The notes under the pieces are model-generated. The model was not told the origin of the DNA, did no database searches, and saw only the letters and a program-made list of their open reading frames with translations. From a virus: a stretch of DNA of 46,247 nucleotides. Position numbers and translations under genes: made by a program. The stretch covers positions 1-46,247 of IMG/VR virus record IMGVR_UViG_3300025655_006938; one strand, 5' to 3'. The first letter of the stretch is position 1. Each line of letters starts with the position of its first letter. Below, piece by piece: positions 1-28,803 of this stretch.

Positions 1-1462
1 AATCGTTCTTGTAGTCATAATTATAGTAGACCATTTGCCCCCAACGACTAAAAATCATAAGTTCTCTGTATTGCCAATCCATTAGATTTTCGATTGTAAA
101 TAAATCATTTACATTATCACTATTAGGAGTAAATACATTAGGTATAATTACTGGTTTAGGATCTGGACTTGGTGGGACTGGTTCTAATTCTTGATCTATG
201 GGTCCTGGGTCTGGTAAAGGTGGTGGTGGGGGGCATTCACTAACTAATATTACAATAGTATCAAATTCAGCCATAGGTAAACCACATTTATTGATTAGTG
301 TGTTACCATCCATTCCTTTTTTAGAATATAAATAGTATCTACCCCCTGTTAATCCAGCAAAAAATGTAACTTGTAGTGAATCGGTTTCAGCATTTACATC
401 ACAATCAGCGATTATATTTGTAATAGCTCGAGGTTGATTATCAGGCCCAGTAATTCTAAAATCTTGTTGATTAACTGAATAGCAATCTAAAGCAATATGG
501 AACTTTAATGTTACCATTGTATCACCACATTCAGCATAAATTGCTGGGTAGGCTGTTAGGGTGTCTTGAGCATATAATGTTGTATCATATTGGACACCTT
601 GACTGGCAATAGCATTACAGTTAGGAGAGATACTAATCATCATATCACGCGATGCCGTTCCTACTTTATACCAATAACCCCAAATTGTATCAAAACGATA
701 TTCTTCAACTAATACAGATAATACATCAATTTCTGTTGCTGTAGGTAAAAATGTAATTAAACCACTAACAGGATCAATATTAAAGTAAGCTGATGTTACA
801 GGTTGTTGGGTAGTCCATCCTGCTAAATAGGGAATATCTGTTTGGTTAGGGTAAGCATTTTGTCTACAATTGATAAGTGAATAAACTATTGAATCACCAT
901 CTTCTTCAATTGCTGTTTGTTTCCAATTAAATGGGTTACCAACACAAAATGCTCTAACTGGCTCACTAACAAATACAGGGGATGAATTTTGCCCCTGTGA
1001 AGCATTATCTAATTCAGCATCAAAATAAAAACCAGCTCCACTTGAACCTGCTATGTTTGTAATACCACCTGGTCTGCAACAATTTTGATACCAAAAACGA
1101 TAAGTACTACAATTACCTGGTAATGTTACATAACCAACATACATGTAAACTTCTAATGTTTTAGTATAGGTTGGGGTTGATACAACACAATCAAACAAAG
1201 TTGGTGACACAATCCCTGAGCCTGGGGCTAATGTCATCGGAATATTTATATTACCATAGCAATTAGAACTTACTGTAACTGTTTCTGTTGTTGGCAAACC
1301 AATACCAGTTACATCCCTATAAACACGTAAGATTACCTTATAATGGCGTGGAATTCCGGTTGAATCACCAATATAACGATATTGGATATCACCACCCGCT
1401 AAGTGCGATGCTGTTGAAACGAGGCTTATTAACAGCGCTAAAAGAACATATATTTTTTTCAT
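1..1462 (-). CDS. T9SS-type secreted protein with gliding-motility-associated (type B) C-terminal domain, partial
   Basis: This open frame of about 487 codons runs off the left edge and lacks its C-terminus. It starts with a signal peptide (MKKIYVLLALLISLVSTA) followed by SHLAGG, resembling the SHIVGG start of mature Bacteroidetes gliding-motility-associated proteins. A long Cys-containing, beta-rich region follows, including VYRD near residue 50. Next come a Pro-rich linker (ECPPPPPLPDPGP, about residues 405-435) and, from about residue 440, NVFTPNSDNVNDLF with IFSRWGQMVY downstream. That is the CHU_C / TIGR04131 type B sorting domain recognised by the type IX secretion system. About 35-40 residues of the domain should lie outside the window. 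The frame was checked by hand in several places and is uninterrupted. Expected role: export through the host T9SS to the cell surface or medium. Its function on a phage is unknown. Confidence 0.9.
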   Translation of the reverse strand, partial: MKKIYVLLALLISLVSTASHLAGGDIQYRYIGDSTGIPRHYKVILRVYRDVTGIGLPTTETVTVSSNCYGNINIPMTLAPGSGIVSPTLFDCVVSTPTYTKTLEVYMYVGYVTLPGNCSTYRFWYQNCCRPGGITNIAGSSGAGFYFDAELDNASQGQNSSPVFVSEPVRAFCVGNPFNWKQTAIEEDGDSIVYSLINCRQNAYPNQTDIPYLAGWTTQQPVTSAYFNIDPVSGLITFLPTATEIDVLSVLVEEYRFDTIWGYWYKVGTASRDMMISISPNCNAIASQGVQYDTTLYAQDTLTAYPAIYAECGDTMVTLKFHIALDCYSVNQQDFRITGPDNQPRAITNIIADCDVNAETDSLQVTFFAGLTGGRYYLYSKKGMDGNTLINKCGLPMAEFDTIVILVSECPPPPPLPDPGPIDQELEPVPPSPDPKPVIIPNVFTPNSDNVNDLFTIENLMDWQYRELMIFSRWGQMVYYNYDYKND

Positions 1463-1718: not shown

Positions 1719-1937
1719 ATGAAAAAACTTTTATTCACAATTGGGGTTGCAATGGTTTTAACAGGTTGTTCAACATCCAATTTTGCCACACACCCAGTAA
1801 GCGAAACACCCACCACTAAACGCCAAGTTTACATCTTTGACGATCACGTTGAAATTCACACGCGAACTAAAATGTCAATAGAACAATACAATCGAATAGT
1901 AGCCACAACAGTCAACAATAGAGATGAGCGCAATTAA
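1719..1937 (+). CDS. Small lipoprotein, 72 aa
   Basis: The only plus-strand gene I support in the window. MKKLLFTIGVAMVLTGC is a lipoprotein signal peptide with lipobox LTGC (Cys17), followed by a short, mostly polar domain (VYIFDDHVEIHTRTK). The mature part is about 55 residues. The gene has its own intrinsic terminator, whose loop contains the stop codon, so it is an independent unit transcribed towards the rest of the window. An A-rich leader (CCTAAAACAAAAACAC) precedes the ATG. The function is unknown; a phage-encoded envelope lipoprotein could act in superinfection immunity or lysis, but nothing shows this directly. Confidence 0.8.
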   Translation: MKKLLFTIGVAMVLTGCSTSNFATHPVSETPTTKRQVYIFDDHVEIHTRTKMSIEQYNRIVATTVNNRDERN

Positions 1938-1953
1938 GCGCTCATTTTTATTT
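1924..1953 (+). terminator. Intrinsic terminator of the plus-strand lipoprotein gene
   Basis: ATGAGCGC (1924-1931), loop AATTAA (1932-1937), GCGCTCAT (1938-1945), then TTTTATTT. The 8-bp perfect stem is followed by a T-rich tail on the plus strand only. The loop carries the stop codon of the lipoprotein gene. The tail touches the 3' end of the convergent gene at 1952. Confidence 0.85.
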
Positions 1954-2143
1954 AACCTTTAATCAACTGCTTGCCTTGAGGTTTCGGCTTATTATAATAC
2001 CTCTTACGATTATTATACTTTAACCTACCAATCTGCTCATTCAAATCCTTAATTTGAGTTTGCAACTTATTTACCTCAAGCCACCCTAAAGCTAATCCTA
2101 GTAAAGATAGGATAAGGGCTAGAGACGATAAAAACACTACCAT
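1952..2143 (-). CDS. Small membrane protein with coiled coil, 63 aa
   Basis: An N-terminal transmembrane helix (about residues 3-22, VFLSSLALILSLLGLALGW) is followed by a heptad-like helix (VNKLQTQIKDLNEQIGRLK, about 24-42) and a basic tail rich in Lys, Arg and Tyr. The layout resembles small phage inner-membrane or spanin-like proteins, but there is no specific motif. It is convergent with the lipoprotein gene and last in its own minus-strand run. A TATATATA stretch lies 18 nt upstream without a clear -33 box. Confidence 0.65.
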   Translation of the reverse strand: MVVFLSSLALILSLLGLALGWLEVNKLQTQIKDLNEQIGRLKYNNRKRYYNKPKPQGKQLIKG

Positions 2144-2181
2144 AATTCTTTAATTTAATTTTATATATACGTATTTAGAGA

Positions 2182-2355
2182 TTAAATATCGTTGGAAGAA
2201 GCCTTAAGCTGTTTTGCTTTTTTATAAGCTATTTCATAACGTTCATTTACTTCCATTTTTGGATTTTCTATTTTTAATTCTTGGGCTATAGACATGGTTT
2301 CATGTTGAATACCTTTTGCCCAAGCTTTATGCATTATTTCTTCTATCCTACTCAT
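2182..2355 (-). CDS. 57-aa hypothetical protein
   Basis: ATG to TAA, starting MSRIEEIMHKAWAKGI and ending KAKQLKASSNDI. It is charged and probably all-helical, with no membrane segment. The start overlaps the end of the upstream membrane-protein gene (2348) by 8 nt, a coupling seen throughout the window, which supports a real gene despite its size. No family is recognised. Confidence 0.6.
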   Translation of the reverse strand: MSRIEEIMHKAWAKGIQHETMSIAQELKIENPKMEVNERYEIAYKKAKQLKASSNDI

Positions 2356-2539
2356 TGCGTTTATTAAAACTTACAATAAAACTATAAATAAATCCCAATA
2401 CACCAATTGGCCAACCTATTATCAACATTATTCTTTCCTTATGGTTAAACATATTTTCGGTGCTAATTTTAGAAGCACTCCACTGCATTAACCCTTGAAA
2501 AGCGATACCTATTAAGGTATAATTGATAAGCCAACTCAT
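2348..2539 (-). CDS. Two-helix membrane protein, 63 aa
   Basis: Two hydrophobic segments (about residues 4-20, LINYTLIGIAFQGLMQW; and 38-58, IMLIIGWPIGVLGFIYSFIV) are joined by a polar loop. The protein ends in basic residues (FNKRNE), suggesting a small hairpin membrane protein. It is the first gene after a hairpin plus TATATTTA element and overlaps the following 57-aa gene. The function is unknown. Confidence 0.6.
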   Translation of the reverse strand: MSWLINYTLIGIAFQGLMQWSASKISTENMFNHKERIMLIIGWPIGVLGFIYSFIVSFNKRNE

Positions 2540-2549
2540 GTACGTTCAA

Positions 2550-2587
2550 TAAATATAGTGAGGACTTTTTCGGTCCTCACGTTTCAA
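2550..2587 (-). promoter_or_regulatory. Hairpin followed by TATATTTA box
   Basis: GTGAGGAC (2558-2565) and GTCCTCAC (2573-2580) form a perfect 8-bp stem with a 7-nt loop. On the minus strand TATATTTA (2550-2557) follows immediately, 10 nt before the next ATG. The nearest TTG (2585-2587) is 27 nt upstream of the box, too far for the standard spacer. The element may be a promoter with operator, or a terminator with a UAUAUUUAUU tail. Confidence 0.45.
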
Positions 2588-2612
2588 TTCGTTTCTATCA
2601 AACTTTATTTTA

Positions 2613-2735
2613 CTATGACTTTTTTGAGTCATCTTCCTTCGAATCAGTTGAGCCAGATGCCCCTCCGTTCGTGTTCGTCTTTTGTTCGGTATGTTCTTGC
2701 CATTGCTCATCCCAAAATACATATTCATTCTTCAT
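2613..2735 (-). CDS. 40-aa acidic hypothetical protein
   Basis: ATG to TAG, MKNEYVFWDEQWQEHT at the start and a low-complexity Ser/Asp/Lys tail (STDSKEDDSKKS). It overlaps the preceding 38-aa ORF by 11 nt. I prefer this frame over an alternative 60-codon frame on the same strand, which is very rich in Arg and Lys, because this one matches the acidic composition of its neighbours. No homolog is recognised. Confidence 0.45.
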   Translation of the reverse strand: MKNEYVFWDEQWQEHTEQKTNTNGGASGSTDSKEDDSKKS

Positions 2736-2841
2736 CTGTGAAGTCTTCGTAATCAGATTCGTGCGTAATTATAGTTTTGATGCCCACTTGTTGAAGTAAT
2801 TTGTCTTCTGTTTTTGAGTCATCTTTTGGCGTTGTTCCCAT
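2725..2841 (-). CDS. 38-aa acidic hypothetical protein
   Basis: Starts MGTTPKDDSKTEDKLLQQ and ends SDYEDFTDEE. It begins 18 nt after the stop of the 94-aa gene and runs into the next small ORF by overlap. Its GATGACTCAAAAA stretch recurs near the end of the following ORF, hinting at local duplication. The function is unknown, and the short length limits confidence. Confidence 0.45.
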   Translation of the reverse strand: MGTTPKDDSKTEDKLLQQVGIKTIITHESDYEDFTDEE

Positions 2842-2859
2842 TTTGGTGGATAGGTTACT

Positions 2860-3144
2860 TTAAAATTGGAAGGAACCTCGAGGTCGTGGTTGTTTTGCTT
2901 GTCTGGGGTCAACGTCGTGTTTGAACAACATACCCAATTTATGAGGTTTTTTAACAATTTCATTGGTAGCATAATAATAGATAGGACCTTTATATACATT
3001 TCCTTGTAAATAACGTTCACCATTCCAACTCCTAAATTCACGTGCAGTGATTCGTACCCGATTGTCACCGCTTTGAATTTCACAAGATAATGATTCGTTG
3101 AAATCATATTTTAATTTAATTAAGTCTCCTTTTTTCTCAGCCAT
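2860..3144 (-). CDS. 94-aa hypothetical protein
   Basis: I choose the start at MAEKKGDLIKLKYDF (3144), because the longer frame would run into the upstream gene, whose stop lies just 1 nt before this ATG. The protein looks beta-rich (CEIQSGDNRVRITAREF, YLQGNVYKGPIYYYA) with a basic, Pro-rich C-terminus (RQAKQPRPRGSFQF). It is encoded directly after the protein with the SSB-like tail, so the pair may work together. No family is recognised. Confidence 0.7.
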   Translation of the reverse strand: MAEKKGDLIKLKYDFNESLSCEIQSGDNRVRITAREFRSWNGERYLQGNVYKGPIYYYATNEIVKKPHKLGMLFKHDVDPRQAKQPRPRGSFQF

Positions 3145-3145
3145 A

Positions 3146-3421
3146 TTAGAAGGGTAAGTCATCATCAGGACCATAAGGTGTTACATCCCAAGCATCCTCA
3201 CCACCAGTTTTATCTATAATATCTAATTCATCATAAAACTTAGCACCAGCCAAGTCAAGTAGTTCTTCAACTGTACCAATGTTTTCAATTACATTGATTG
3301 TATTATCACTTACTAAGCGAACTGAGGTGTATTTACCTTCGTCTGTAAAGCAGGTGATTTTGTTTACTGGGATAAGGTGTGTTTTGTTATTACCCCAGCC
3401 TGTAAGCTTAATATATTTCAT
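3146..3421 (-). CDS. FlbD-like small protein with SSB-type acidic C-terminal tip, 91 aa
   Basis: The N-terminal half (MKYIKLTGWGNNKTHLIPVN, then VRLVSDNTINVIENIGTVEELL) resembles the small beta-rich FlbD-type fold. The C-terminus is acidic and ends GPDDDLPF, very close to the DDDIPF tip by which bacterial single-stranded-DNA-binding proteins recruit repair and replication enzymes. No OB fold is visible in only 91 residues. Possible role: mimic of, or competitor for, host SSB partners. The tail is observed; its meaning is inferred. Confidence 0.7.
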   Translation of the reverse strand: MKYIKLTGWGNNKTHLIPVNKITCFTDEGKYTSVRLVSDNTINVIENIGTVEELLDLAGAKFYDELDIIDKTGGEDAWDVTPYGPDDDLPF

Positions 3422-3651
3422 AGCAACAAATTATTATTTTCCAAACCATACCAAAAACGCTCAAGCCATACTCCAACTTTAACGCCTTCAATTTTTTCGT
3501 CTACTGATAGATTATCATTAAATCGTTTATCGGCTACTTTAAGAATGCCAAAATCGAATAGATCACGAGCGTGATCTAGATTACCTTGCTCAACTGCTTC
3601 TTTTGCTTGAGCATACACTTTTGTTAGAATTCCTTTTTCCTTCTTTGCCAT
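3418..3651 (-). CDS. 77-aa helical hypothetical protein
   Basis: Mostly helical and charged: MAKKEKGILTKVYAQAKEAV, then GNLDHARDLFDFGILKVADK and a C-terminal WLERFWYGLENNNLLL. The 4-nt ATGA overlap with the next gene places it firmly in the operon. A TATATTCA box lies 17 nt upstream of the ATG, so it may head a short unit. No family is recognised. Confidence 0.7.
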   Translation of the reverse strand: MAKKEKGILTKVYAQAKEAVEQGNLDHARDLFDFGILKVADKRFNDNLSVDEKIEGVKVGVWLERFWYGLENNNLLL

Positions 3652-3668
3652 AACTTTTATTTATTGAT

Positions 3669-3676
3669 TGAATATA
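3669..3676 (-). promoter_or_regulatory. TATATTCA box, weak promoter candidate
   Basis: On the minus strand this reads CGTATATTCA, the same core as the stronger candidates, 17 nt before the ATG at 3651. No TTTG is found at the expected distance upstream, so only the -7-like half is supported. Confidence 0.3.
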
Positions 3677-3680
3677 CGAC

Positions 3681-4400
3681 TTATTTCTTGAGTCTCCACG
3701 TACCGTTTTCTTTTTTTTCAAGAAATGGAAGTAATTCTACTTCTAATACCCACCCTTTATGCTGTTTAGCCCTAAATGTAGATAACATGTATAGTGTGCC
3801 CTCATCTGTATCATTAGGATATTTACGATGCAAATCAGATGTTTTACCAAAATACCTCCCAAATTCAGGATGGTAAAACCATTTAGGTTGCTCATTATAT
3901 TTACTAGTTCGTTTTTTAGTAATATGAGTTAGACAAGTATCCAAATCACCCCCATCCTTAAACATTTGCTCAGCTTCATTATACACAGTTTGTGTCAAAC
4001 CAAATGCTTTAGGTTGTTTAATATGATTTATTTTAGTTTTAATCTCTTTAGATAGAGGCTGATAATAATCATTTGAGGTATGAAAATCAATTTCACATCC
4101 TAAACTAATAAGTTTATTTAATTTAGCTTCAATATGATTCCAAAATGTAGTAGTGTCTTCTACTAATTCTGTATTATCAAAATTAATTGTAGGATTTTTA
4201 TAAATTGACTTATCATATGGTTCAATCATTTTATCGGGTTTGATTAAACCATATTTTGATGATAAAATTAAATATTGGTCATAAGCAGGTTTGATAAAAT
4301 TACGTTGTGCTCTATAAACAAATGATTTAGAGTACATCTCATCAGCTTTACAAGGATACTCTTGTTTTTGTTTTTTACAACTTATAACTGCTACCCTCAT
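3681..4400 (-). CDS. DUF6884-like protein, 239 aa
   Basis: The start is MRVAVISCKKQK (4400), giving an ATGA overlap with the upstream stop; the longer frame adds four unlikely residues. The N-terminal about 75 residues match the DUF6884 pattern: VISCKKQK, then a YSKSFVYRAQ segment, LILSSKYGLI and IEPYDKS. The remainder, including a C-terminal PEFGRYFGKTSDLHRKYP region, is not assigned. DUF6884 proteins are common on phages and mobile elements and have no firmly known activity. Its neighbour is a possible GIY-YIG-like protein. Confidence 0.6.
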   Translation of the reverse strand: MRVAVISCKKQKQEYPCKADEMYSKSFVYRAQRNFIKPAYDQYLILSSKYGLIKPDKMIEPYDKSIYKNPTINFDNTELVEDTTTFWNHIEAKLNKLISLGCEIDFHTSNDYYQPLSKEIKTKINHIKQPKAFGLTQTVYNEAEQMFKDGGDLDTCLTHITKKRTSKYNEQPKWFYHPEFGRYFGKTSDLHRKYPNDTDEGTLYMLSTFRAKQHKGWVLEVELLPFLEKKENGTWRLKK

Positions 4401-4999
4401 ACTAAAACCCATTTTTTACCCTGTTGAATGTACTTTTTACCCTCAGGAATACGTTTATTATCTCTAATATGAACTTCTTTAAGTCCCATATTACTCAAAG
4501 TAATTTGAAGTGATTTACCATCCAAATTTAAATCTTCATCTACGCGATTATTTTCTAAATTAAATTTTTCAATGTCTTCTCTCCATAACTTTTCAAATGG
4601 ACGGAAATCAACATTAACATTCAAAGTTCTTTCAGAACCATTGATTATAGCTTTAACAGAGATAGGTTTAATATGTTCAGGGACTGAGTATAGGGTGACT
4701 TGTTTGTTGTCTTGTAAGTATTTGAATATGATAGGATTTGTAGCAGCATTGCAATACCCAGGTTTATCAGTCCAGTAATTAGCACTTTGATAGAAACGAG
4801 CTCTATCTACTACGGCCATACCTGTTCCTCCTACCTTACGAATAATACCATCAACTACTATAAAATATATCCAAGCACTTTTTTTGGAATATTTAAGTTT
4901 AATCTCATCATTAATATAATTCCAACTCCAATTTACCAAATCAGAATCAACAGTTGCATAAGCAATTTTAACTATACCTTTAACTTCAGTTATTTTCAT
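4397..4999 (-). CDS. Possible GIY-YIG-like protein, 200 aa
   Basis: The start MKITEVKGIVKI (4999) is chosen because it lies 2 nt after the stop of the upstream 56-aa gene; the longer frame's extra N-terminus is that gene read in another frame. The core WIYFIVVDGIIRKVGGTG, then RARFYQSANYW, then IFKYLQDNKQVTLYSVPE recalls the beta-strand plus (K)xGxT...R layout of GIY-YIG/T5orf172 domains. A catalytic Glu cannot be placed with confidence. The function could be DNA cleavage or only nucleic-acid binding. Confidence 0.55.
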   Translation of the reverse strand: MKITEVKGIVKIAYATVDSDLVNWSWNYINDEIKLKYSKKSAWIYFIVVDGIIRKVGGTGMAVVDRARFYQSANYWTDKPGYCNAATNPIIFKYLQDNKQVTLYSVPEHIKPISVKAIINGSERTLNVNVDFRPFEKLWREDIEKFNLENNRVDEDLNLDGKSLQITLSNMGLKEVHIRDNKRIPEGKKYIQQGKKWVLV

Positions 5000-5001
5000 A
5001 C

Positions 5002-5172
5002 TTAAATATAAAACCTTTCCACTGCTCCTCCAACCACTCCAGGCCTTAATTCGCAAACAGCATAAACAACATTGTCTAATTTATGAACAACGTGCCACGT
5101 TTTCTTTTCATGGATAAATTTTTCATTCCACTTTTTGCCTGGGATTTCAATTCGTTTTGGTCCTCGTCTCAT
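5002..5172 (-). CDS. 56-aa basic hypothetical protein
   Basis: MRRGPKRIEIPGKKWNEKFI at the start and GVVGGAVERFYI at the end, with KTWHVVHKL in between; compact and basic. The ATG overlaps the upstream TGA (ATGA) and the stop lies 2 nt before the next ATG, so operon spacing supports it strongly. It could bind nucleic acid. No family is recognised. Confidence 0.6.
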   Translation of the reverse strand: MRRGPKRIEIPGKKWNEKFIHEKKTWHVVHKLDNVVYAVCELRPGVVGGAVERFYI

Positions 5173-5531
5173 TTCAATGAGAAGATTTTATATAAACGAG
5201 CTGAACCTACAAAGCCATAGGTTTTAAGTTTCTCGTGTAAATCAAAATCGAGGTGTTCATTCCATTTATCAACCAATTCCTTAGTCAACTTAGAATTTTT
5301 AGCTACATCAATTACTTCCTCACGAATCGCTTCTGGGAGTGGGTTATATTCATGTAGATATTCGTTGTTGGAGACCCAACGTTGGTATTCATCATAGCTC
5401 AAACCACTATTATAAATTTTAGCTAAGATATCAATTTCATCAATAAGGTAATCACCCAATTCAGGGTCACCATTATCGTATGCCTCGTTCATTTCAACTC
5501 GCAATCGTTTAATTTCTTGTAAAATATTCAT
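5169..5531 (-). CDS. 120-aa acidic helical hypothetical protein
   Basis: Predominantly helical with high Glu/Asp: MNILQEIKRLRVEMNEAYDN, LGDYLIDEIDILAKIYN, PEAIREEVIDVAKNSK. No membrane segment, cysteine cluster or nucleotide motif is seen. It sits 3 nt after the preceding 75-aa gene. The function is unknown. Confidence 0.7.
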   Translation of the reverse strand: MNILQEIKRLRVEMNEAYDNGDPELGDYLIDEIDILAKIYNSGLSYDEYQRWVSNNEYLHEYNPLPEAIREEVIDVAKNSKLTKELVDKWNEHLDFDLHEKLKTYGFVGSARLYKIFSLK

Positions 5532-5533
5532 AA

Positions 5534-5761
5534 TTAATCTAATTTATATTTTTTCTTCCACAACTCGTAAAATTTTCTACCAATACCAAGTTCAAGTATA
5601 ATAGCATCCTCAGGTACTCCTGGGAGTTTGCTATGGGTACTTAAAACGTAATCAATGTGGTAACCATTGAATTTTTTAATTTTAGTCACTGCATTAGAAC
5701 GATTTGAGGTTTTCCAAACCATTACTATAGGTGCATTTATAACATCTTTACCTCGCGCCAT
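5534..5761 (-). CDS. 75-aa hypothetical protein
   Basis: A small alpha/beta protein (MARGKDVINAPIVMVWKTS, YHIDYVLSTHSKLPG, FYELWKKKYKLD). Its start overlaps the 3' end of the upstream gene by 14 nt. No recognisable motif or family. Confidence 0.65.
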   Translation of the reverse strand: MARGKDVINAPIVMVWKTSNRSNAVTKIKKFNGYHIDYVLSTHSKLPGVPEDAIILELGIGRKFYELWKKKYKLD

Positions 5762-6125
5762 TTATAACACTTTTAGCAATTGCATAACGTTGTGAAGTGT
5801 ATTTTCGTACTTCAGTAATACCACTTAATTTACTTTCAACCCAAAAATCCTTATCACCCCACCTACTTAAAATTATAGCTTCAAGTTCTTCAGCTCGTTC
5901 TTTACTTCCAACTATTACTGAGTCGCATATTGTAATATTAGGGAAAATATTAATATAGGAATCTTGTTCAATACCCTCAGTGAATGCTTGGTGATTGTAA
6001 ACAAATCTATTCTTAGCATCAACAAATTTAGTAACTCCTACTTTAAGTAAATTTAATTTATCGTTTTGGAGTGCTGCTAAATATAATTTATATTTGCCTC
6101 CTTTAAGTGATATGTAATTAGCCAT
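5748..6125 (-). CDS. GIY-YIG/T5orf172-like protein, 125 aa
   Basis: The layout LYLAAL ... LLKVGVTKFVDAKNRF, then RAEELEAIILSRWGDKDFWVESKLSG, follows the pattern of T5orf172/GIY-YIG domains: strand, KxGxT, basic residue, helix containing AxxLE. Glu in the ELEAII helix could be the metal-binding residue. It overlaps the SWIM protein gene upstream by 8 nt. A second, weaker protein of this type lies at 4397-4999. The family call is tentative. Confidence 0.5.
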   Translation of the reverse strand: MANYISLKGGKYKLYLAALQNDKLNLLKVGVTKFVDAKNRFVYNHQAFTEGIEQDSYINIFPNITICDSVIVGSKERAEELEAIILSRWGDKDFWVESKLSGITEVRKYTSQRYAIAKSVINGAR

Positions 6126-6531
6126 TTTTTACTTGTTTAATATGTTTGCACTCACGATCCTTAGCTCTCCAGCTACCAGGGCAAGAACAGCTGTAACGAA
6201 CACCATTGAAACGAACCTTGTAAACAGCATCGCTTGATTCCGATTTGAAATCCCATTGTGTTGGTTTTTCTTTTTCGGGCTCAGGAGCATTGTAAACAAT
6301 ATCTATAAGTGTAGTTTCGGGGTGAACCTCAATCCAATCTGGTGTGAGGTATTTTTTACCATCAATTGGTGAAGTCATAATACCATGGTATGGTGTTCTT
6401 GATTCATAGCGAAAGCGCCTTGCCCCTACAAAGGGGCCGAATCCACGACCAATTGTTAAAGCGCCTTCTGAATGTACAATACGGCTTCTAAAGTTTCCGT
6501 ATTTGTTTACAGTCGTCAATTTCCAAAGCAT
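6118..6531 (-). CDS. SWIM zinc-finger protein, 137 aa
   Basis: The C-terminal motif YSCSCPGSW followed by ECKHIKQ gives the CxC-xn-CxH ligands of the SWIM zinc finger (residues about 113-131). The N-terminal part carries a GRGFGPFVGARRFRYES stretch and the middle is acidic and Pro-rich. SWIM domains mediate DNA or protein binding, and stand-alone small SWIM proteins occur on large phages. The gene follows the best hairpin-spacer promoter candidate, 22 nt upstream of the ATG. Confidence 0.8.
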   Translation of the reverse strand: MLWKLTTVNKYGNFRSRIVHSEGALTIGRGFGPFVGARRFRYESRTPYHGIMTSPIDGKKYLTPDWIEVHPETTLIDIVYNAPEPEKEKPTQWDFKSESSDAVYKVRFNGVRYSCSCPGSWRAKDRECKHIKQVKNG

Positions 6532-6553
6532 AACCTCTATTTCCTTATTTGGG

Positions 6554-6585
6554 TGAATATATGAAGGGGCTTTCGCCCCTCCAAA
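6554..6585 (-). promoter_or_regulatory. Candidate promoter with perfect hairpin in the spacer
   Basis: Minus strand: TTTG (6582-6585), 20-nt spacer, TATATTCA (6554-6561), then 22 nt to the ATG at 6531. The spacer is almost wholly a perfect 6-bp inverted repeat, AGGGGC (6565-6570) and GCCCCT (6575-6580), with a GAAA loop in the RNA sense. Spacing and hairpin repeat the arrangement at 1468-1499. Confidence 0.55.
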
Positions 6586-6586
6586 T

Positions 6587-6742
6587 CTATGCTAAAAATA
6601 CCTCAGGTCCTTTTACTCTTTCTCGCTCTAATTGTAAATCGAGAGTAATAGCGGTACATAAACGATGAAGATCAATTTGCCTCATTTGGGCTATATCTTC
6701 ATCATCTAACATATGAAGAATATCTATAGGTTTAATAGTCAT
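6587..6742 (-). CDS. 51-aa hypothetical protein
   Basis: MTIKPIDILHMLDDEDIAQM at the start, ending KGPEVFLA; helical and slightly acidic. It overlaps the preceding 46-aa ORF by 11 nt. The gene ends just before the TTTG of the downstream promoter candidate. No family is recognised. Confidence 0.6.
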   Translation of the reverse strand: MTIKPIDILHMLDDEDIAQMRQIDLHRLCTAITLDLQLERERVKGPEVFLA

Positions 6743-6872
6743 TCTGCGCTCCATACGTCATATAATCAGGGCGTGCTTTTTTCTTTTTCTTCATAATTGG
6801 GTACTTGTGTTGTGCCCATTTATGCCACTCACTGAATGCTTCATAACGCGTCTTAGCTGACATTTTACTCAT
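6732..6872 (-). CDS. 46-aa basic hypothetical protein
   Basis: Starts MSKMSAKTRYEAFSEWHKWA, with a Lys run (MKKKKKARPDY) and ends TYGAQNDY. It overlaps both neighbours (8 nt upstream, 11 nt downstream). The basic stretch suggests nucleic-acid contact. Unknown function. Confidence 0.55.
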   Translation of the reverse strand: MSKMSAKTRYEAFSEWHKWAQHKYPIMKKKKKARPDYMTYGAQNDY

Positions 6873-6993
6873 AACATTTACAATTTTTATTACATTTATT
6901 TGGATTAGAACATGAATGTACGGAGAAGAGCAGTGTATAGCACGCCCAAATTAGGACTGCTATACTTGCTGCTGCTTCTAGTACTTGCATCAT
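6865..6993 (-). CDS. 42-aa membrane peptide with Cys-rich tail
   Basis: One hydrophobic helix (about residues 9-25, ASIAVLIWACYTLLFSV) is followed by HSCSNPNKCNKNCKCYE, four Cys in 13 residues. It starts 1 nt after the lipoprotein gene and overlaps the next ORF by 8 nt. The compact Cys cluster could bind metal or be disulfide-linked outside the inner membrane. No homolog is recognised, and its size makes it uncertain. Confidence 0.5.
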   Translation of the reverse strand: MMQVLEAAASIAVLIWACYTLLFSVHSCSNPNKCNKNCKCYE

Positions 6994-6994
6994 T

Positions 6995-7657
6995 TTATTT
7001 GTTTTCGATATCGCTGCTTAATTTCATAGTAGGAATTGGTGTTCCAACTGGGTATGGAGCGCCTTCTTTAGCCGCAGTAATTGATTTCATACCTGATTTT
7101 ACATGGATAGCTTTACGCAATGGTACAGCTGCTTCATTGAGCGGACCAAAACATTCAGCTAAAATAATACCATTGTCTAATGTGTCAATGATACGACCAG
7201 GCATAGCAAACATGTTACTCATACTAGTGTGTGCTGAGTCTGTGTTTACGATAAATGCTCTGTTGTTTGGAGCCATCCATTCCCAACTTTGTGTTGCTGG
7301 ATTGAATTGTGGAACAACATCTGTTGTATCAAAATACCAATAGAAAGACCATACTGTTTGGTTAGTTCCGTCTGGTGTTTGTGGGTTGTCTTTTACATAG
7401 AATTTACCCCAAGTTCCACCATCACCCCACATATCGAGGTTAGCGATTGAAGGACCTACTAATACAGGACAAATAGCACAACCCTCATCGAATTCTACTC
7501 CTTGAACAATAATTTTTTTACCTGTTGGAACTGCACCTGATGCACCACAGAATGCGTAAGCGCCTTCGTGGATTTGTAGAATATTCTTTTCAGGGTGTGG
7601 TTTAGAACAGCTGAATAGCATTGCAGCTGCAACCATTGCGAATAACATTTTTTTCAT
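6995..7657 (-). CDS. Lipoprotein, 220 aa
   Basis: MKKMLFAMVAAAMLFSC is a signal peptide with lipobox LFSC (Cys17). The mature protein has paired Cys motifs (AFCGASG; EGCAICP), an aromatic region (WSFYWYFDTTDVVP) and an Ala/Lys-rich C-terminus. It should be lipid-anchored in the host envelope, leaflet undetermined. The ATG overlaps the stop of the upstream 43-aa gene (TAATG). Lipoproteins on phages often act in superinfection exclusion or lysis; which applies here is unknown. Confidence 0.8.
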   Translation of the reverse strand: MKKMLFAMVAAAMLFSCSKPHPEKNILQIHEGAYAFCGASGAVPTGKKIIVQGVEFDEGCAICPVLVGPSIANLDMWGDGGTWGKFYVKDNPQTPDGTNQTVWSFYWYFDTTDVVPQFNPATQSWEWMAPNNRAFIVNTDSAHTSMSNMFAMPGRIIDTLDNGIILAECFGPLNEAAVPLRKAIHVKSGMKSITAAKEGAPYPVGTPIPTMKLSSDIENK

Positions 7658-7788
7658 TAGTTTTCTTGTTTAGTTAATTTTTTTAGTACATCATAGTTGT
7701 TAGCCATTCGTTTAGCGAATTTAAGCTGTGTTTTTTTACTTTTAGGTCTCGATTTAAAATCGATTCGTTTTTTAGCTGATTGTCCCAT
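7657..7788 (-). CDS. 43-aa very basic protein
   Basis: MGQSAKKRIDFKSRPKSKKT then a helix LKFAKRMANNYDVLKKL. Very high Lys/Arg and no membrane segment. It lies 1 nt after the 47-aa gene and is coupled by TAATG to the lipoprotein gene. It may be a small nucleic-acid-binding protein of the virion or host-takeover type; this is inferred from charge alone. Confidence 0.6.
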   Translation of the reverse strand: MGQSAKKRIDFKSRPKSKKTQLKFAKRMANNYDVLKKLTKQEN

Positions 7789-7789
7789 A

Positions 7790-7933
7790 TTATCTACCTT
7801 GTCCTCTATATTGTTTAGTATAATTTTTACTTGACTTAAGTTGGGACGTTTTTGTTTTAGCGTGGACGCCTGGTCTTGATACTTGAGCTTTTTCTTTAAA
7901 CGTGGACGTTGTTTGAGATTTAGTTTTAGCCAT
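7790..7933 (-). CDS. 47-aa basic Ser/Thr/Lys-rich protein
   Basis: MAKTKSQTTSTFKEKAQVSR, then GVHAKTKTSQLKSSKN and YRGQGR. The AKTKSQTTSTF and AKTKTSQLKSS stretches look like an internal repeat. Basic, low-complexity and probably disordered. It is paired with the 43-aa basic gene. No family is recognised. Confidence 0.6.
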   Translation of the reverse strand: MAKTKSQTTSTFKEKAQVSRPGVHAKTKTSQLKSSKNYTKQYRGQGR

Positions 7934-7977
7934 TTAAGAATAAATTAACATTAATAGTAACTTTGCAGTTATAAATA

Positions 7978-8532
7978 TTAAAATTTACTCTTTAATTGAT
8001 TAGCTAAATTTTTTACTTTTGAAACATACTCTGGGTCTTCAGCATAGCTACCTTCTAAATAGCGGTAATATTCTTCTTCCGTATTAAGAGCACTTAAATA
8101 TCGACATTGATAAAAAGCATAATCGTAAATTGAACTTTCCCAATTATCATAATAAGCATGATTTCGGTTAGTACCTTTAGCTGTATTAATTCTAATCCGT
8201 GCTTGTTTCATTCCAAACAAGTTATGATTTTCTTTAAATATCTTGGATTTAAAATTATTAGTTTCAATTTTAGATTGGGCTAATGCAATGTGAGGAAATT
8301 TCATATTTAATTCCTTCATTAACGCAATCATTTTTTCTTCACTGAATGGTTCTTGCTTCATATTGATTAGCAAGATGTTTTTCTCATATTCTGAGAGATT
8401 ATTTAGTTTAGTAAATCTACCTAAAGTGTAGGATGTGATTAATAATCCTAAAAGGGCTAAACTACCAATGAGGTAATTTTTAAATTTTAATTGTTTAAAA
8501 ATCAGCTCGTGTCGATTGTATTTATAAAGCAT
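7978..8532 (-). CDS. Membrane-anchored glucosaminidase-like peptidoglycan hydrolase (GH73 type), 184 aa
   Basis: An N-terminal hydrophobic helix (about residues 20-39, YLIGSLALLGLLITSYTLG) precedes a domain of the FlgJ/Bax-type glucosaminidase family: IALAQSKIETNNF with the likely catalytic Glu in KIETN, NHNLFGMK, and AYYDNWESSIYDYAFYQCRY. It should cleave host peptidoglycan from the periplasmic side and is the only cell-wall hydrolase in the window. The small-residue-rich helix recalls signal-anchor-release endolysins, but that mode is inferred. Confidence 0.75.
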   Translation of the reverse strand: MLYKYNRHELIFKQLKFKNYLIGSLALLGLLITSYTLGRFTKLNNLSEYEKNILLINMKQEPFSEEKMIALMKELNMKFPHIALAQSKIETNNFKSKIFKENHNLFGMKQARIRINTAKGTNRNHAYYDNWESSIYDYAFYQCRYLSALNTEEEYYRYLEGSYAEDPEYVSKVKNLANQLKSKF

Positions 8533-8534
8533 AA

Positions 8535-8690
8535 TTAAAATAAATCAAGAAATTTTCCTCCGCTTTTCTTATCCTTCAATTTACGAAGTTTTTCGTCGTT
8601 ATCCAACATCTTAGTTGCTAACTTATCTAAGTGCTTAGATTTTTCTTTTTGATAGTCTTTAACTATTCTTTCATGTTTTTTAGATTTCAT
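8535..8690 (-). CDS. 51-aa Lys-rich helical protein
   Basis: MKSKKHERIVKDYQKEKSKH, then LDKLATKMLDNDEKLRKLKD and GGKFLDLF; one long charged helix or coiled coil. The ATG overlaps the HNH gene's TGA (ATGA), and its stop precedes the hydrolase gene by 2 nt. The function is unknown. Confidence 0.6.
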   Translation of the reverse strand: MKSKKHERIVKDYQKEKSKHLDKLATKMLDNDEKLRKLKDKKSGGKFLDLF

Positions 8691-9331
8691 AGTCTGGAGA
8701 TAAATTCTGAGCCATCTTCAGCGTCAGGGGGGTTATGTAATCCTAATTCTTTTAATCGCTCAAGTTGATATGAATCTAATTCCCACTCAATAGCATCTGA
8801 TGTGTTAAATTTAGGGACTGAATCTTCAATTGAAGCAATATCAGCAGCGTTAAATACGTCTGCAACTGTTAAAAAATAGTGATTATAACAAAGTACTTCC
8901 AAATTATCTAACCTATAATTTTTTGGATTTTTATCCTTAAAATTAAGTAGTAAAGGTATTTTATAATCAGATACTCTACGTTCACTAAAACCGCACATTG
9001 AGCATTCCTCATTTAAATAACCTTCTTCAAATAAACGTTTTTTAACCTTAGTAGGGCTAAAATTTGTCATTGGGATAATCCCATTGATTAAATCTTTTAG
9101 TGGGGGTGTTTTACCATGATTACCAATCCACTTAGGAATACCCTTACCAGCTTGATTTAAATGTTGTTCAAATAAATTAGCATAACCTTTTTCGGTTGCC
9201 TCATAAAATTTAGCCCACTTCTTATAATGAACATAGCTACAATTTAAGTAGCGTGCTGCTGAACGATTACTTTTAGTAACGCCCATAGCAGCAAGGATTT
9301 GTTCTTTAGTAAGTGGTTTTGGTAATGGCAT
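8687..9331 (-). CDS. HNH-like zinc protein with N-terminal HTH, catalytic His apparently lost, 214 aa
   Basis: N-terminal LTKEQILAAMGVTKSNRSAARYL is a helix-turn-helix-like segment, followed by YVHYKKWAKFY. Later, CSMCGFSERR and LEVLCYNHYFL supply the C..C / C..H zinc ligands of the HNH fold, with NYRLDNLEVLC typical of HNH endonucleases. The usual LDHxDG segment is replaced by LLLNFKDKN, so the general-base His is missing. It may be a regulator or nicking-deficient relative rather than an active endonuclease. It is coupled by TAATG to the zinc-finger gene upstream. Confidence 0.65.
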   Translation of the reverse strand: MPLPKPLTKEQILAAMGVTKSNRSAARYLNCSYVHYKKWAKFYEATEKGYANLFEQHLNQAGKGIPKWIGNHGKTPPLKDLINGIIPMTNFSPTKVKKRLFEEGYLNEECSMCGFSERRVSDYKIPLLLNFKDKNPKNYRLDNLEVLCYNHYFLTVADVFNAADIASIEDSVPKFNTSDAIEWELDSYQLERLKELGLHNPPDAEDGSEFISRL

Positions 9332-9651
9332 TATCCGATATCTGTAACATTTAACCCACTCGTATCAGGAGTAGATTCATCATCATCAAAGTTCTGGAGT
9401 TCGGATTTGCTTGCTCCTTTAGATATTTTACCCTCAGAACTCATATAATTACGATATTGTTTTTCTTCCATAATAACAACATCAGTATACGAATGATCTC
9501 CTTTACCACGTTGTATTGTTACACCACGCTTACGACTAACATCTGAGCAGTTTACACAGCATTTAGTATTTGGGAGGATTTCTAAACGTTTTGGGTGAAT
9601 TTCCTCACCACATCCTTGACATTCTACAGCCATAATTTCAATTTGAATCAT
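9331..9651 (-). CDS. DksA/TraR-like C4 zinc-finger protein, 106 aa
   Basis: CQGCGEEIHPKRLEILPNTKC followed by CVNC matches the C4 zinc finger of DksA/TraR (CxxCG...RL...P...CxxC). The long N-terminal coiled coil of DksA is absent, as in short phage TraR-type proteins; the C-terminus is acidic. I use MIQIEIMAVECQGC (9651) as start, since a promoter candidate covers the region further upstream; MAVECQ (9633) is also possible. TraR-like proteins act on host RNA polymerase, a plausible but unproven role here. Confidence 0.65.
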   Translation of the reverse strand: MIQIEIMAVECQGCGEEIHPKRLEILPNTKCCVNCSDVSRKRGVTIQRGKGDHSYTDVVIMEEKQYRNYMSSEGKISKGASKSELQNFDDDESTPDTSGLNVTDIG

Positions 9652-9671
9652 ACATATAACCTTTATTTTTG

Positions 9672-9703
9672 TAAATATACGAACTAACTTTCGATTAGAC
9701 AAA
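9672..9703 (-). promoter_or_regulatory. Candidate Bacteroidetes-type promoter
   Basis: Minus strand: TTTG (9700-9703), 20-nt spacer, CG, TATATTTA (9672-9679), then 20 nt to the ATG at 9651. It overlaps the 3' end of the upstream gene (stop at 9684), so it would be an internal operon promoter for the zinc-finger and HNH genes. No hairpin lies in the spacer. Confidence 0.5.
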
Positions 9704-10076
9704 TTAAATTGTAAAGATCTTCAGCAGTTTCTATTACGAATGCTTCGTCTCCAAAATTTACAATTTTATCATCTTCATCCTCAGCTAATGAATGTTCGTA
9801 AATATACCATAAAACTACCTCAGCTACTTCTTCTTCGAATGTATAATAAATAAGTCCTTCAAGTGATTTAGCAAATAAATCTTCCCAACCCCAAAGATCA
9901 AGACCATATTTTTCTTGAACTTCATTAGAGCGAGTAATAGCTTTTTTGTAGTTGTCTACAAATATAATAAAGTTTTTTTTAGTTAATTCTTCAGGTGATA
10001 AGATTTCCCCTTGTATGTCAATAGGGGTATCAAACATCTTTTGAAAGAATTTTTTAAAATCTTTCTTGGGTTCCAT
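9684..10076 (-). CDS. 130-aa acidic hypothetical protein
   Basis: MEPKKDFKKFFQKMFDTPID, then an all-helical acidic body (LWGWEDLFAKSLEGLIYYTFEEEVAEVV) ending AEDLYNLICLIES. Soluble, with no motif. It is coupled by TAATG to the 55-aa gene before it. No firm family assignment. Confidence 0.7.
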   Translation of the reverse strand: MEPKKDFKKFFQKMFDTPIDIQGEILSPEELTKKNFIIFVDNYKKAITRSNEVQEKYGLDLWGWEDLFAKSLEGLIYYTFEEEVAEVVLWYIYEHSLAEDEDDKIVNFGDEAFVIETAEDLYNLICLIES

Positions 10077-10243
10077 TAAAATGTCCCTTTTTTACTGACA
10101 GCAAATATAGATAAAAATGGCTTTAATTTTAGTTGTTTACGCCCAGCAAAATACTTAGCAGCTTGTAAACGTGAAAACGCTCGTACTGAGTCAATTGGTT
10201 CTTGGCTTTGATCATTTCGAGAATAAAAATAGTACTTAGTCAT
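10076..10243 (-). CDS. 55-aa hypothetical protein
   Basis: MTKYYFYSRNDQSQEPIDS, then VRAFSRLQAAKYFAGRKQL and FLSIFAVSKKGTF. The RLQAAKYFAGRK helix followed by a short strand is reminiscent of small conserved T4-like phage proteins. Both ends are coupled: ATGA with the upstream stop and TAATG with the downstream start. The function is unknown. Confidence 0.65.
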   Translation of the reverse strand: MTKYYFYSRNDQSQEPIDSVRAFSRLQAAKYFAGRKQLKLKPFLSIFAVSKKGTF

Positions 10244-10554
10244 AATCTTGATTTTAAATTTACTAATTCACTGCACTTAGTATAATCTTCTAATTTTTCA
10301 TAATGTTTAATAGCTTTATTTAAAAACGTTCTATAATGTTCTTTTTTAATAGCTACTTTTACATTATAATTGTTTATAGTAAAAATTACACATTCACTTT
10401 TATTTTTACGAATTGCTTGCTTGACAGCAGCTATCGCGTTCTTGAACATGAATGTAACAAATTCTTGTTGCTCAGCCAACTCTAATAGTTCTTCTGGGTC
10501 ATCGTACTTGATCTCCACGTCAAGTGGGAATTCAAGTTTATATTTTTGTTCCAT
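10240..10554 (-). CDS. 104-aa hypothetical protein
   Basis: Alpha/beta protein: YKLEFPLDVEIKYDDPEELL, then a helix (TFMFKNAIAAVKQAIRKN), strands (CVIFTINNYNVKVAIKKE), and a C-terminal helix. No cysteine cluster or nucleotide motif. It lies 12 nt downstream of the stop of the glycosyltransferase that ends the sugar operon, so it may be read through from it. Confidence 0.65.
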   Translation of the reverse strand: MEQKYKLEFPLDVEIKYDDPEELLELAEQQEFVTFMFKNAIAAVKQAIRKNKSECVIFTINNYNVKVAIKKEHYRTFLNKAIKHYEKLEDYTKCSELVNLKSRL

Positions 10555-10566: not shown

Positions 10567-11448
10567 TTAAATCTCTTCGTATTCTATTTCTATAGTACTA
10601 AAACCCCAAGTGTCTAAATTTTCAGTTTGATTTTGATTAACTATTGCTCTATGAATGTCATTTCCTACTTTATTAACACCATCAGCCATTCCACCACCAC
10701 CCCATCCTTTAGAACCATGGTTAATATGGAACATAGGAGGATTATAGATAGCTTTTAGACCAAATCCATGTTTTACTGCTTTTTTCTGGACATTAGTATC
10801 AGCGTATAAAGGGTAGATGAGTACTTCTTCGAACCCGCGAATTGATTCCCACACATGTTTAGGGGCTAGTTGAAAATCACCGCAACAATTAATTAAACTA
10901 TAATCATCTCCATTAACTGTTTTTTCTTCATGCTTACGTTCTTCAGAGTTAACATAAATATAATCTCTTAAAGCACTCCAATCTTCAAACTTCATTTCAC
11001 CTCCATGAAATTCTTTAATAATTTCCCAAGTAACTTCTCGTCTACTTAAGGTAATAAATGTGTTCCCATCACTATCATTAATTACTTTCTCAATATCTTC
11101 ACGTTTAGGATGAATAATATCAATATTAGTAGAAACAATATAATCACCTTTAGCTCTACGAATACCAATATTACGAGCTAGTACTTCACAACATTTTTGG
11201 GCATTAGGATCATAATCTGTAAGTTGAGAAGCAGCATCTGGGGGGATAACAAAATGTTTAAGGTTGCCTTTTAGATCAAGATTATCTTGAATATCCCAAA
11301 GTAAACTATGCCCATCAGGTGAATTCCAATCAACATAAATTACTTCATCATAAGTAGCAAGTGCTGAATTGATAGCGTATGTTGCTCTTTCGTTTAAATG
11401 TCCTCCATAATTGTCATTGCGAGAAACTATAACTGCTGAAATTTTCAT
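10567..11448 (-). CDS. GT-A family glycosyltransferase, 293 aa
   Basis: MKISAVIVSRNDN is the nucleotide-binding first strand of a GT2-like enzyme. NIGIRRAKGDYIVSTNIDII contains the expected DxD-like acidic cluster (NID), and the C-terminal half has GGFxE-like (RGFEEVL) and HINHG segments typical of GT-A acceptor loops. It should transfer a sugar from a nucleotide-sugar donor in the cytoplasm. Last gene of the sugar operon, 3 nt after the epimerase gene. Donor and acceptor unknown. Confidence 0.75.
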   Translation of the reverse strand: MKISAVIVSRNDNYGGHLNERATYAINSALATYDEVIYVDWNSPDGHSLLWDIQDNLDLKGNLKHFVIPPDAASQLTDYDPNAQKCCEVLARNIGIRRAKGDYIVSTNIDIIHPKREDIEKVINDSDGNTFITLSRREVTWEIIKEFHGGEMKFEDWSALRDYIYVNSEERKHEEKTVNGDDYSLINCCGDFQLAPKHVWESIRGFEEVLIYPLYADTNVQKKAVKHGFGLKAIYNPPMFHINHGSKGWGGGGMADGVNKVGNDIHRAIVNQNQTENLDTWGFSTIEIEYEEI

Positions 11449-11451
11449 TTA

Positions 11452-12324
11452 TTAATTATTAAGTGATCGTTTAATACCTTCTTCTAAACTAATTTTAGGA
11501 GTATAAAAACTTAACATTTTAGAACTATCTGAACATCTATACATTACTCCTACTGGCTTTTCAGTTTTGTGTTTAATTCCATTTTTTGGTCTCCATCCTG
11601 AAATTTTGAATGTTATTTCTGCTAAGTCATTAAATGATGTTGGGATACCACTTCCTAAATTAATTGGTTCTTGAATATCTAATTCTACAGCTTTCATTGT
11701 AGCTTCAACAATATCTTCTATATGGATAAAATCCCTAACTTGAGTTCCATCACCCCAAATTTCAAATTCTTCTACTTGATCAATTACTCTTTTAATAAAT
11801 GAAGGAAATGGGTAATCCAAATCTTGTGTTTCTCCATAACCACTAAATGGTCTAAAAACATATACTTTAAGACCATATTGACGAGCAAAATGAGCTAAGT
11901 ATTCCCCTGAAAGTTTGGCCCAACCATAAGTAAAATCAGGTGATCTCATATCCATCAAATCAATGTCTGATTCTTTAAGTTTATGAGTACTATCTTTAGT
12001 TTGCAAATGAATGGGGTAAGCAGCTGAAGAACTAAAATAAATAATTTTATTTTGTTTTGTTCTTACAGCCCAATTAAAAAACTCAGCATCAATAGATAAA
12101 TCAGTTGCTACAGCTAATGGATCATTTTCAATAGTATCTCTTCCACCAACAATAGCTGCTAAATGTACTATTAAGTCAAATTGTGTATCACATATTTTAA
12201 AAAAATCTCTACAATCGTTTCCTTCTTTAATATCAACTCCTGTAATGTCATGTCCTTGTTCGGTAAAATATTTTACATATTGTTGTCCTACGAATCCTTT
12301 ATGTCCTGTGATTAAAATTTTCAT
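11452..12324 (-). CDS. NAD-dependent sugar epimerase/dehydratase (extended SDR), 290 aa
   Basis: The start is MKILITGHKGFVGQQY (12324), which makes a 4-nt ATGA overlap with the upstream gene; a longer frame adds 14 residues inside that gene. GHKGFVG is the Rossmann dinucleotide motif. HLAAIVGG, the SSSAAYP segment and YGWAKLSGEY (YxxxK) are SDR catalytic features, and RPFSGYGETQ and DFIHIEDI are typical of nucleotide-sugar epimerases. The product could be a 4- or 5-epimer; the exact substrate cannot be read. Confidence 0.85.
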   Translation of the reverse strand: MKILITGHKGFVGQQYVKYFTEQGHDITGVDIKEGNDCRDFFKICDTQFDLIVHLAAIVGGRDTIENDPLAVATDLSIDAEFFNWAVRTKQNKIIYFSSSAAYPIHLQTKDSTHKLKESDIDLMDMRSPDFTYGWAKLSGEYLAHFARQYGLKVYVFRPFSGYGETQDLDYPFPSFIKRVIDQVEEFEIWGDGTQVRDFIHIEDIVEATMKAVELDIQEPINLGSGIPTSFNDLAEITFKISGWRPKNGIKHKTEKPVGVMYRCSDSSKMLSFYTPKISLEEGIKRSLNN

Positions 12325-13265: not shown

Positions 13266-13280
13266 AATTTATTTTTTAAA

Positions 13281-14778: not shown

Positions 14779-15325
14779 TTAATATTTCTTTTACTTTGTT
14801 AAAACCAATATGGCACATTTCTTTCCATGAAGACGCATCTCCATCATCACTTACCCATTTATAAGAACTAAAATTCATATTAAAACGTTTACATACTTTA
14901 GCAATAGCAAAACATTCCATATCAAAAATAGAACATTTTTCTATCATATCTAAATAAGATTTAGAATATTTACTTCTTTGTTGAGCATCATAAAAATAAT
15001 CCGTTGTAAAACAAGTAATAGAAGAAATAGCATCTATTACAATTTGATAGCTAGCAGCTTCAAAAGGAGTATAACCATATTCTTGAAGGGGGGTAGCATC
15101 TATATCTTGAAACACTTGTCCTACTTTTACTATTTCACCTGGGGTGTGTTTAAGAGAACCACAAGAGCCAATATTAATTACTTCTTTATAACCTTCACTA
15201 AATGCTCTATATGCAGCCATAGTAGCATTGATCTTACCAACACCACTAAAAATAACAGGAATACCTAAAATTTTATCTTGGGTTTCAATTTCATAGGGGA
15301 CTGCTACAATAAAAACTTTACTCAT
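14759..15325 (-). CDS. Nucleoside phosphorylase / MTA-SAH nucleosidase-like protein, 188 aa
   Basis: FSGVGKINATMAAY, INIGSCGSL and IFDMECFAIAKVCKRF are the signature blocks of the PNP_UDP_1 family, the last resembling the substrate-binding MExxA segment of MTA/SAH nucleosidase. WVSDDGD near the C-terminus supplies the catalytic Asp region. It is shorter than the usual 230 residues. Likely reaction: release of adenine from S-adenosylhomocysteine, methylthioadenosine or 5'-deoxyadenosine. The adjacent gene is an adenine phosphoribosyltransferase, which would use that adenine. Confidence 0.75.
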   Translation of the reverse strand: MSKVFIVAVPYEIETQDKILGIPVIFSGVGKINATMAAYRAFSEGYKEVINIGSCGSLKHTPGEIVKVGQVFQDIDATPLQEYGYTPFEAASYQIVIDAISSITCFTTDYFYDAQQRSKYSKSYLDMIEKCSIFDMECFAIAKVCKRFNMNFSSYKWVSDDGDASSWKEMCHIGFNKVKEILNDSSIS

Positions 15326-17441: not shown

Positions 17442-17442
17442 A

Positions 17443-17979: not shown

Positions 17980-17981
17980 AA

Positions 17982-18590: not shown

Positions 18591-18596
18591 AATTTA

Positions 18597-27053: not shown

Positions 27054-27055
27054 TT

Positions 27056-28802: not shown

Positions 28803-28803
28803 A

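Follow-up and report, generated by a model that had tools for sequence, protein, structure and literature searches.

A conserved gene of uncultured marine Bacteroidota phages predicted to encode a type B cargo of the type IX secretion system

RESULTS

A gene with a type IX secretion tag at the end of a viral contig

The window, by which we mean the whole 46,247-nucleotide stretch of viral DNA analysed (IMG/VR record IMGVR_UViG_3300025655_006938), opens with a 487-aa frame that runs off the contig end (Table 1). Judged by its relatives, about 34-42 residues encoded by the 3' portion of the gene are absent from the window copy. The protein begins with MKKIYVLLALLISLVSTA and SHLAGGDIQY, continues through ~390 beta-rich residues to the CPPPPPLPDPGP linker, which includes CPPPPP, and then reads NVFTPNSDNVND and IFSRWG. 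By eye, we recognised a Sec signal peptide in the window copy and in every complete relative. The edge-truncated frame, signal peptide, SHxxGG start, Pro-rich linker and type B motifs of the type IX secretion system (T9SS) that a preliminary description of this DNA had reported were all present where it placed them.

Profile searches used the curated cut-offs of 27 bits for PF13585 (CHU_C) and 35 bits for TIGR04131. PF13585 matched the window protein at 46.3 bits (E 4.7e-12; residues 439-487; profile positions 2-50 of 86) and the whole window record at 51.4 bits in a six-frame search, which gave no PF13585 match in any of 14 control genomes. TIGR04131 reached 29.5 bits on the window protein, under its cut-off, with the domain incomplete at the contig end. 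Of the two profiles that the preliminary description had proposed to run, PF13585 scored above its cut-off in the window, and TIGR04131 stayed under its cut-off on the truncated domain. The same description would have dropped its reading had no significant CHU_C match been found; PF13585 was significant in both the window and complete relatives. Membership of the type B class is drawn from PF13585 and from the relatives, not from the TIGR04131 score of the window protein, which is below cut-off. The type A profile TIGR04183 matched weakly, below cut-off, and the significant match was to CHU_C/type B. A chance motif match was ruled out by the profile scores and E-values together with an omega of about 0.05-0.26 against relatives. 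Base composition gave no sign of recent transfer: the gene has 35.4% GC and the rest 32.7%, inside the spread of 1.4-kb windows.

Table 1. Positions of the predicted cargo gene, its parts and its neighbour in the window, and of stand-alone tag proteins in other viral loci
Feature	Position	Strand	Remark
Predicted phage T9SS type B cargo gene	2-1462	-	487 aa seen, 3' end cut
Signal peptide, residues 1-18 (MKKIYVLLALLISLVSTA)	1409-1462	-	Cleavage before SHLAGG, by eye
N-domain, residues about 19-409, modelled as all-beta Ig-like tandem	236-1408	-	Model of the L003 relative
Apparent exchangeable module, about residues 287-409 (L003 286-410)	236-604	-	Two allelic types
Pro-rich linker (CPPPPPLPDPGPIDQELEPVPPSPDPKPV)	149-235	-	Replaces a ~170-200-aa segment present in host orthologue and L061-L063
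CHU_C / type B T9SS sorting domain, incomplete at contig end	2-148	-	Profile match
Small lipoprotein gene, divergent	1719-1937	+	Collinear with G006 17245-17460
Stand-alone tag protein, 107 aa	L161 4352-4675; L168 431-754; L106 6237-6560; L154 inside 4844-5302		
Stand-alone tag protein, 122-123 aa	L118 3215-3583; L136 7380-7751; L174 inside 5579-6040		
Stand-alone tag protein, 93 aa	L166 4146-4427		

The cargo gene belongs to a lineage of contractile-tailed phages

A first scan found the cargo protein in 11 further IMG/VR contigs. With an alignment scan the family grew to at least 17 IMG/VR contigs, including ones of 61 and 113 kb, and L113 (58 kb) and L143 (171 kb) came from a later motif scan. 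All these phages are uncultured, and contigs of the family reach 171 kb. The nine full-length relatives are 521-532 aa long and, where compared, 66-83% identical to L003. CHU_C lies at the extreme C-terminus of the complete relatives, with PF13585 scores of 61-74 bits in all nine records; TIGR04131 was over cut-off in four of the nine (L002, L004, L007 and L008) and at 32-33 bits in the other five. Among three further relatives, it was over cut-off in L056 and L061 and just under in L062. A second phage group (L061-L063) has proteins of 684 aa, which retain a ~170-aa middle segment where the window group has the Pro-rich linker.

In five contigs (G001, G003, G005, G007 and G008), the gene order was nrdB, cargo, nrdA; this neighbourhood was not seen in the window, G002 or G006. 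The fit can be tight: the cargo gene of L005 begins 22 bases upstream of the nrdB end, and its last base is the first of nrdA. The 58.7-kb contig G003 carries the gene in its interior, at 23.8-25.4 kb. PHROGs matches on this contig comprise SSB, UvsX, an exonuclease, DnaB helicase and both ribonucleotide reductase (RNR) subunits, as well as tail sheath, tail tube, baseplate hub and tail fibre, a tail gene set that indicates a contractile-tailed phage. We used the tail sheath family phrog_23 as a phage marker, phrog_2 being unfit because it also matched 11 of the 14 control genomes. A T9SS sorting-domain gene is thus found in genuine phage genomes, at interior loci that come with tail sheath, baseplate hub, DnaB, UvsX and RNR. 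The window itself encodes a DNA polymerase in two pieces, GroEL, an exonuclease and a QueC-like protein, and its genes have relatives in G003, G005 and G006 with the order largely kept. Because window 1719-10554 is broadly collinear with G006 17245-23373, including the small lipoprotein gene, the window cargo gene lies at its normal phage site; the cargo gene of G006 is at 13966-15597, past one extra exported-protein gene. The carriers are, with the host assigned by gene kinship, predicted to be large viruses of marine Bacteroidota from a myovirus lineage.

Several other genes were recorded in the window and its sister phages. The window polymerase is split between 37543-38472 and 39649-41370 (phrog_262 positions 565-842 and 56-569), small ORFs separate the two halves, and G003, G005 and G006 show the same split. 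A GroEL-type chaperonin at 33983-35599 (phrog_5725, 505 bits) has relatives in G002, G003, G005 and G006. A long run of epimerases, a DegT-type aminotransferase, a PfkB-type kinase and glycosyltransferases at 10567-30234 is predicted to be a large island for surface glycans or glycosylation. Immediately upstream of its cargo gene, L003 encodes an 845-aa TonB-dependent receptor (7398-9935; PF00593 61.9 bits, PF07715 49.1 bits), weaker relatives of which occur in gut phage records and in huge uncultured phages. In the same position, L008 (8455-9963) and L056 (6951-7997) encode exported repeat-rich proteins with similar motifs, which have relatives in gut phage records and one huge phage. The L056 protein is lipoprotein-like; by eye, the C-terminus of the L008 protein resembles a degenerate type A CTD, and TIGR04183 gave no match. 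Two genes upstream of its cargo gene, L056 also encodes a DNA/RNA non-specific endonuclease with a signal peptide (6364-6954; PF01223, 93.5 bits).

The protein is under purifying selection and contains a module that appears to be exchanged

Between relatives, omega was about 0.05-0.26 for the whole gene, 0.04-0.24 for the N-domain in most pairs and 0.07-0.20 for the CTD in most measurable pairs, with dS close to saturation in some of the pairs compared. The cargo gene is under purifying selection. Identity was uneven along the protein. Between the window and L004, identity was 92% for residues 19-285, 62% for 286-365 and 73% for the CTD part at 439-487; over residues 366-410, L004 was 87-89% identical to L008-L010 and 69% to the window. 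Identity between L005 and L009 was 92% in the first segment, 45% in the second and 94% in the CTD. By these segment-wise identity tables, from which we judged recombination, a module of ~125 aa appears to be exchanged among related phages. Exchange of this kind would suit a part whose partner varies, and the module may carry specificity.

A structure model of the N-domain built from a 34-row alignment reached pLDDT 88.7 and pTM 0.83 and was nearly all beta strand; a model from a 10-row alignment (pLDDT 50) was discarded. Foldseek matched the retained model to tandem Ig and similar adhesion domains (NCAM, hemolin and the SraP binding region). These matches are generic Ig-like ones with low overall TM-scores, and none names a ligand. 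The N-domain models as an adhesin-type, Ig-like stalk. A sequence search found no solved structure for the cargo protein. In BFVD, at least one protein from an uncultured Caudovirales phage is labelled 'Secretion system C-terminal sorting domain', so such annotations already exist in databases.

Chromosomal orthologues point to a Flavobacteriales source

In a scan of 84,980 species genomes, 26 relatives came from Schleiferiaceae, Cryomorphaceae and other Flavobacteriales or Bacteroidetes MAGs; almost all of them are 42-54% identical. Among the full-length chromosomal proteins, most have 718-750 aa. The orthologue (for example, L041 6001-8211 and L027 5941-8148) has the N-domain, signal peptide and CHU_C tag in common with the phage protein; it differs in a ~190-200-aa middle segment, which the window group lacks, and in its conserved chromosomal locus. 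By eye, the neighbours at this locus are TolC-like, TetR-like, asparaginyl-tRNA synthetase, sigma-54-like and membrane protein genes, with a UvrC-like gene on the other side. In L027, a Schleiferiaceae MAG, tandem copies of the orthologue occupy the locus (5941-8148 and 8379-10541).

In an LG+C20 tree of the N-domain, the 14 phage proteins fell on one side of a branch with support of 100/99, recovered in 200 of 200 bootstrap trees, and L027 was the chromosomal sequence adjoining the phage clade. The simplest reading is one acquisition from a host group of the Schleiferiaceae/Cryomorphaceae type. The translocon gene SprA (PF14349) was present in all ten orthologue-carrying host genomes tested, and each of seven such genomes had three to four PorP/SprF genes (TIGR03519). 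None of ten phage records, these being fragments, had a TIGR03519 match.

Type B tags recur in other viral contigs

The strict DNA pattern for TPNGDGxND occurred in 95 IMG/VR stretches, 80 of which we took as loci (L097-L176). A model built from the CTDs of the window family found a CHU_C-like C-terminal domain in all 80, a count to be read as a guide because IMG/VR may include misassigned contigs. By a crude rule, 55 of the 80 had a signal-peptide-like start, and in 19 the start lay outside the locus. The N-terminal parts were diverse: single-linkage clustering gave one loose group and many singletons and merges most loci, so we give no count of independent families. A tail sheath gene was present in 12 of the 36 larger records tested, including ones of 171, 149, 130 and 385 kb. 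In the records behind L140, L118, L124 and L141, in-frame stops lay inside the tail sheath matches, through either alignment overrun or recoding.

Some loci encode stand-alone proteins of 93-124 aa with little beyond a signal (or lipoprotein) peptide and a CHU_C tag, in viral contigs of up to 149 kb (Table 1). In the 107-aa family, pN was below pS in every pair. These proteins are candidate compact competitors for T9SS shuttles.

INPHARED held no relative of the full cargo gene. CTD-only and host-protein queries against 50,697 phage records gave weak, unannotated matches to the tag, in two huge uncultured phages and in one 4-kb record. Among uncultured Bacteroidota phages, T9SS tagging thus seems to be a recurrent trait, one that seems absent from the phages deposited to date.

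DISCUSSION

The T9SS, an exporter of surface proteins that is specific to Bacteroidota, is required by several phages of these bacteria for infection. The gene described here is a real, conserved phage gene, and by sequence its product is very likely a T9SS substrate. In our reading, the cargo is a phage copy of a Flavobacteriales surface protein that has retained its Sec signal peptide and type B tag. It would be made during infection, probably early, since it lies between nrdB and nrdA in sister phages. Sec would deliver it to the periplasm, and the CHU_C domain would direct its passage through the host SprA translocon. In Flavobacterium johnsoniae, PorP/SprF-like shuttles accompany type B substrates out of the translocon; the majority of these substrates have an adjoining shuttle gene, and three orphans share one shuttle (PMC12618676). 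The phage protein has everything a substrate needs except a shuttle gene and so should, like the orphans, be picked up by a host shuttle of the PorP/SprF type. Five CTD motifs are each necessary, and CTDs target static or mobile surface sites (PMC12618676); PorP-like proteins appear to retain type B proteins at the surface (PMC9143113). On the outer membrane, the cargo would then be presented as a short Ig-like stalk with a Pro-rich link. We put the probability of T9SS export and display of the cargo protein at roughly 0.85.

Beyond display, the protein could change the host surface, block superinfection or serve as a decoy. In Flavobacteriia, changes in gliding and T9SS genes make cells resistant to phages, whose receptors may include the T9SS adhesins SprB and RemA (PMC13288928; PMC7345892); the resistance of such mutants makes these three readings reasonable. 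The displayed protein would most likely replace or shield the host orthologue or another T9SS adhesin that acts as a phage receptor. The outcome would be superinfection exclusion, with specificity perhaps held in the exchangeable module. Counting against this explanation, type B CTDs are selective for particular shuttles, and identity between the phage CTD and that of the host orthologue is just roughly 42-52% in the best alignments. The TIGR04131 scores under cut-off in the window copy and in five of nine complete relatives, the lack of an nrd neighbourhood in the window, G002 and G006, and a host assignment by gene kinship also weigh against it. The whole chain, exclusion included, we hold tentatively, at somewhat below even odds.

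Other readings differ in what they ask of the protein. The preliminary description had allowed for a chimeric join with host DNA at this contig end, and the position of the gene at the edge, like the existence of chromosomal orthologues, would suit such an artefact. However, copies lie in the interior of phage contigs, the collinearity with G006 spans the suspected join, the phage copies form one clade, and the window copy is 81-84% identical to phage copies as against at most 54% to chromosomal ones, leaving an artefact next to no chance. We regard a virion protein, with a tail or decoration role and a CHU_C domain that serves assembly or host binding instead of export, as highly improbable: phage tail proteins often have Ig-like domains and several viral fold matches are tail or Ig proteins, but every complete copy has a signal peptide, the G003 gene lies beside RNR and replication genes and away from tail genes, and chromosomal orthologues have the same layout and tag.

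Two further readings keep the export step. The protein might be an adhesin that benefits the infected cell or its attachment, changing how the cell sticks to particles, algae or other infected cells and excluding no phages. The Ig-like stalk fold agrees with this, as do the exported neighbours in sister phages (the TonB-dependent receptor and the secreted endonuclease), yet we recognised no ligand-binding domain, and the window group has lost the middle segment of the host protein; we judge it unlikely. Alternatively, the CTD might fill PorP/SprF shuttles so that host adhesins, possible receptors, go undisplayed, with the N-domain secondary. Type B shuttles become limiting under substrate overproduction (PMC12618676), and viral contigs encode proteins of 107, 122-123 and 93 aa that are nearly signal peptide plus CTD. 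A pure CTD competitor would need neither the strong conservation of the N-domain nor its swapped module, however, which makes this reading quite improbable for the cargo gene. A bolder reading takes in Bacteroidota phages as a group, which might use type B tags, stand-alone ones included, as a counter-receptor strategy that occupies or redirects PorP/SprF shuttles and swaps the adhesins that rivals use as receptors. We think this wider proposal unlikely.

Comparison with known systems

The closest class is that of type B CTD substrates (TIGR04131/PF13585), such as SprB and Fjoh_3952 of Flavobacterium johnsoniae and PG1035 of Porphyromonas gingivalis. The cargo has in common with them a signal peptide, a C-terminal CHU_C domain over the Pfam cut-off and an adhesin-like body, and it resembles orphan type B substrates in having no adjoining shuttle gene. 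Unlike SprB, Fjoh_3952 and PG1035, it is phage-encoded, scores under the TIGR04131 cut-off in several copies and is called a substrate by its sequence.

The statement in the preliminary description that no phage use of T9SS is well described needs correcting: Bellas et al. (2020) reported that Cryophage encodes three T9SS cargo genes of type A and proposed a hijack of the host T9SS (PMC7468147). In both cases, T9SS-tagged genes occur in a Bacteroidota phage and vary among phage variants, and the exchangeable cargo module parallels the varying T9SS cargo genes of Cryophage (PMC7468147). By contrast, Cryophage is a 76-kb phage with type A CTDs on enzymes and a PA14 protein (PMC7468147), whereas in the window family the tag is of type B and sits on an Ig-like surface protein of host origin, and the carriers are a myovirus lineage with contigs of up to 171 kb. 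We found no description of type B CTDs in phages in the literature searched. Phage T9SS cargo as such thus has one precedent, the type A genes of Cryophage from 2020, and the type B form is new.

Were a phage lineage to retain, trim and reshuffle a T9SS-tagged surface protein of its own, phages would thereby be shown to steer the T9SS. Phage-encoded envelope proteins for superinfection exclusion include T5 Llp and P22 SieA, and we know of none of this type that uses the T9SS. These proteins are unrelated to the cargo, which would nevertheless act as they do, shielding the infected cell from other phages.
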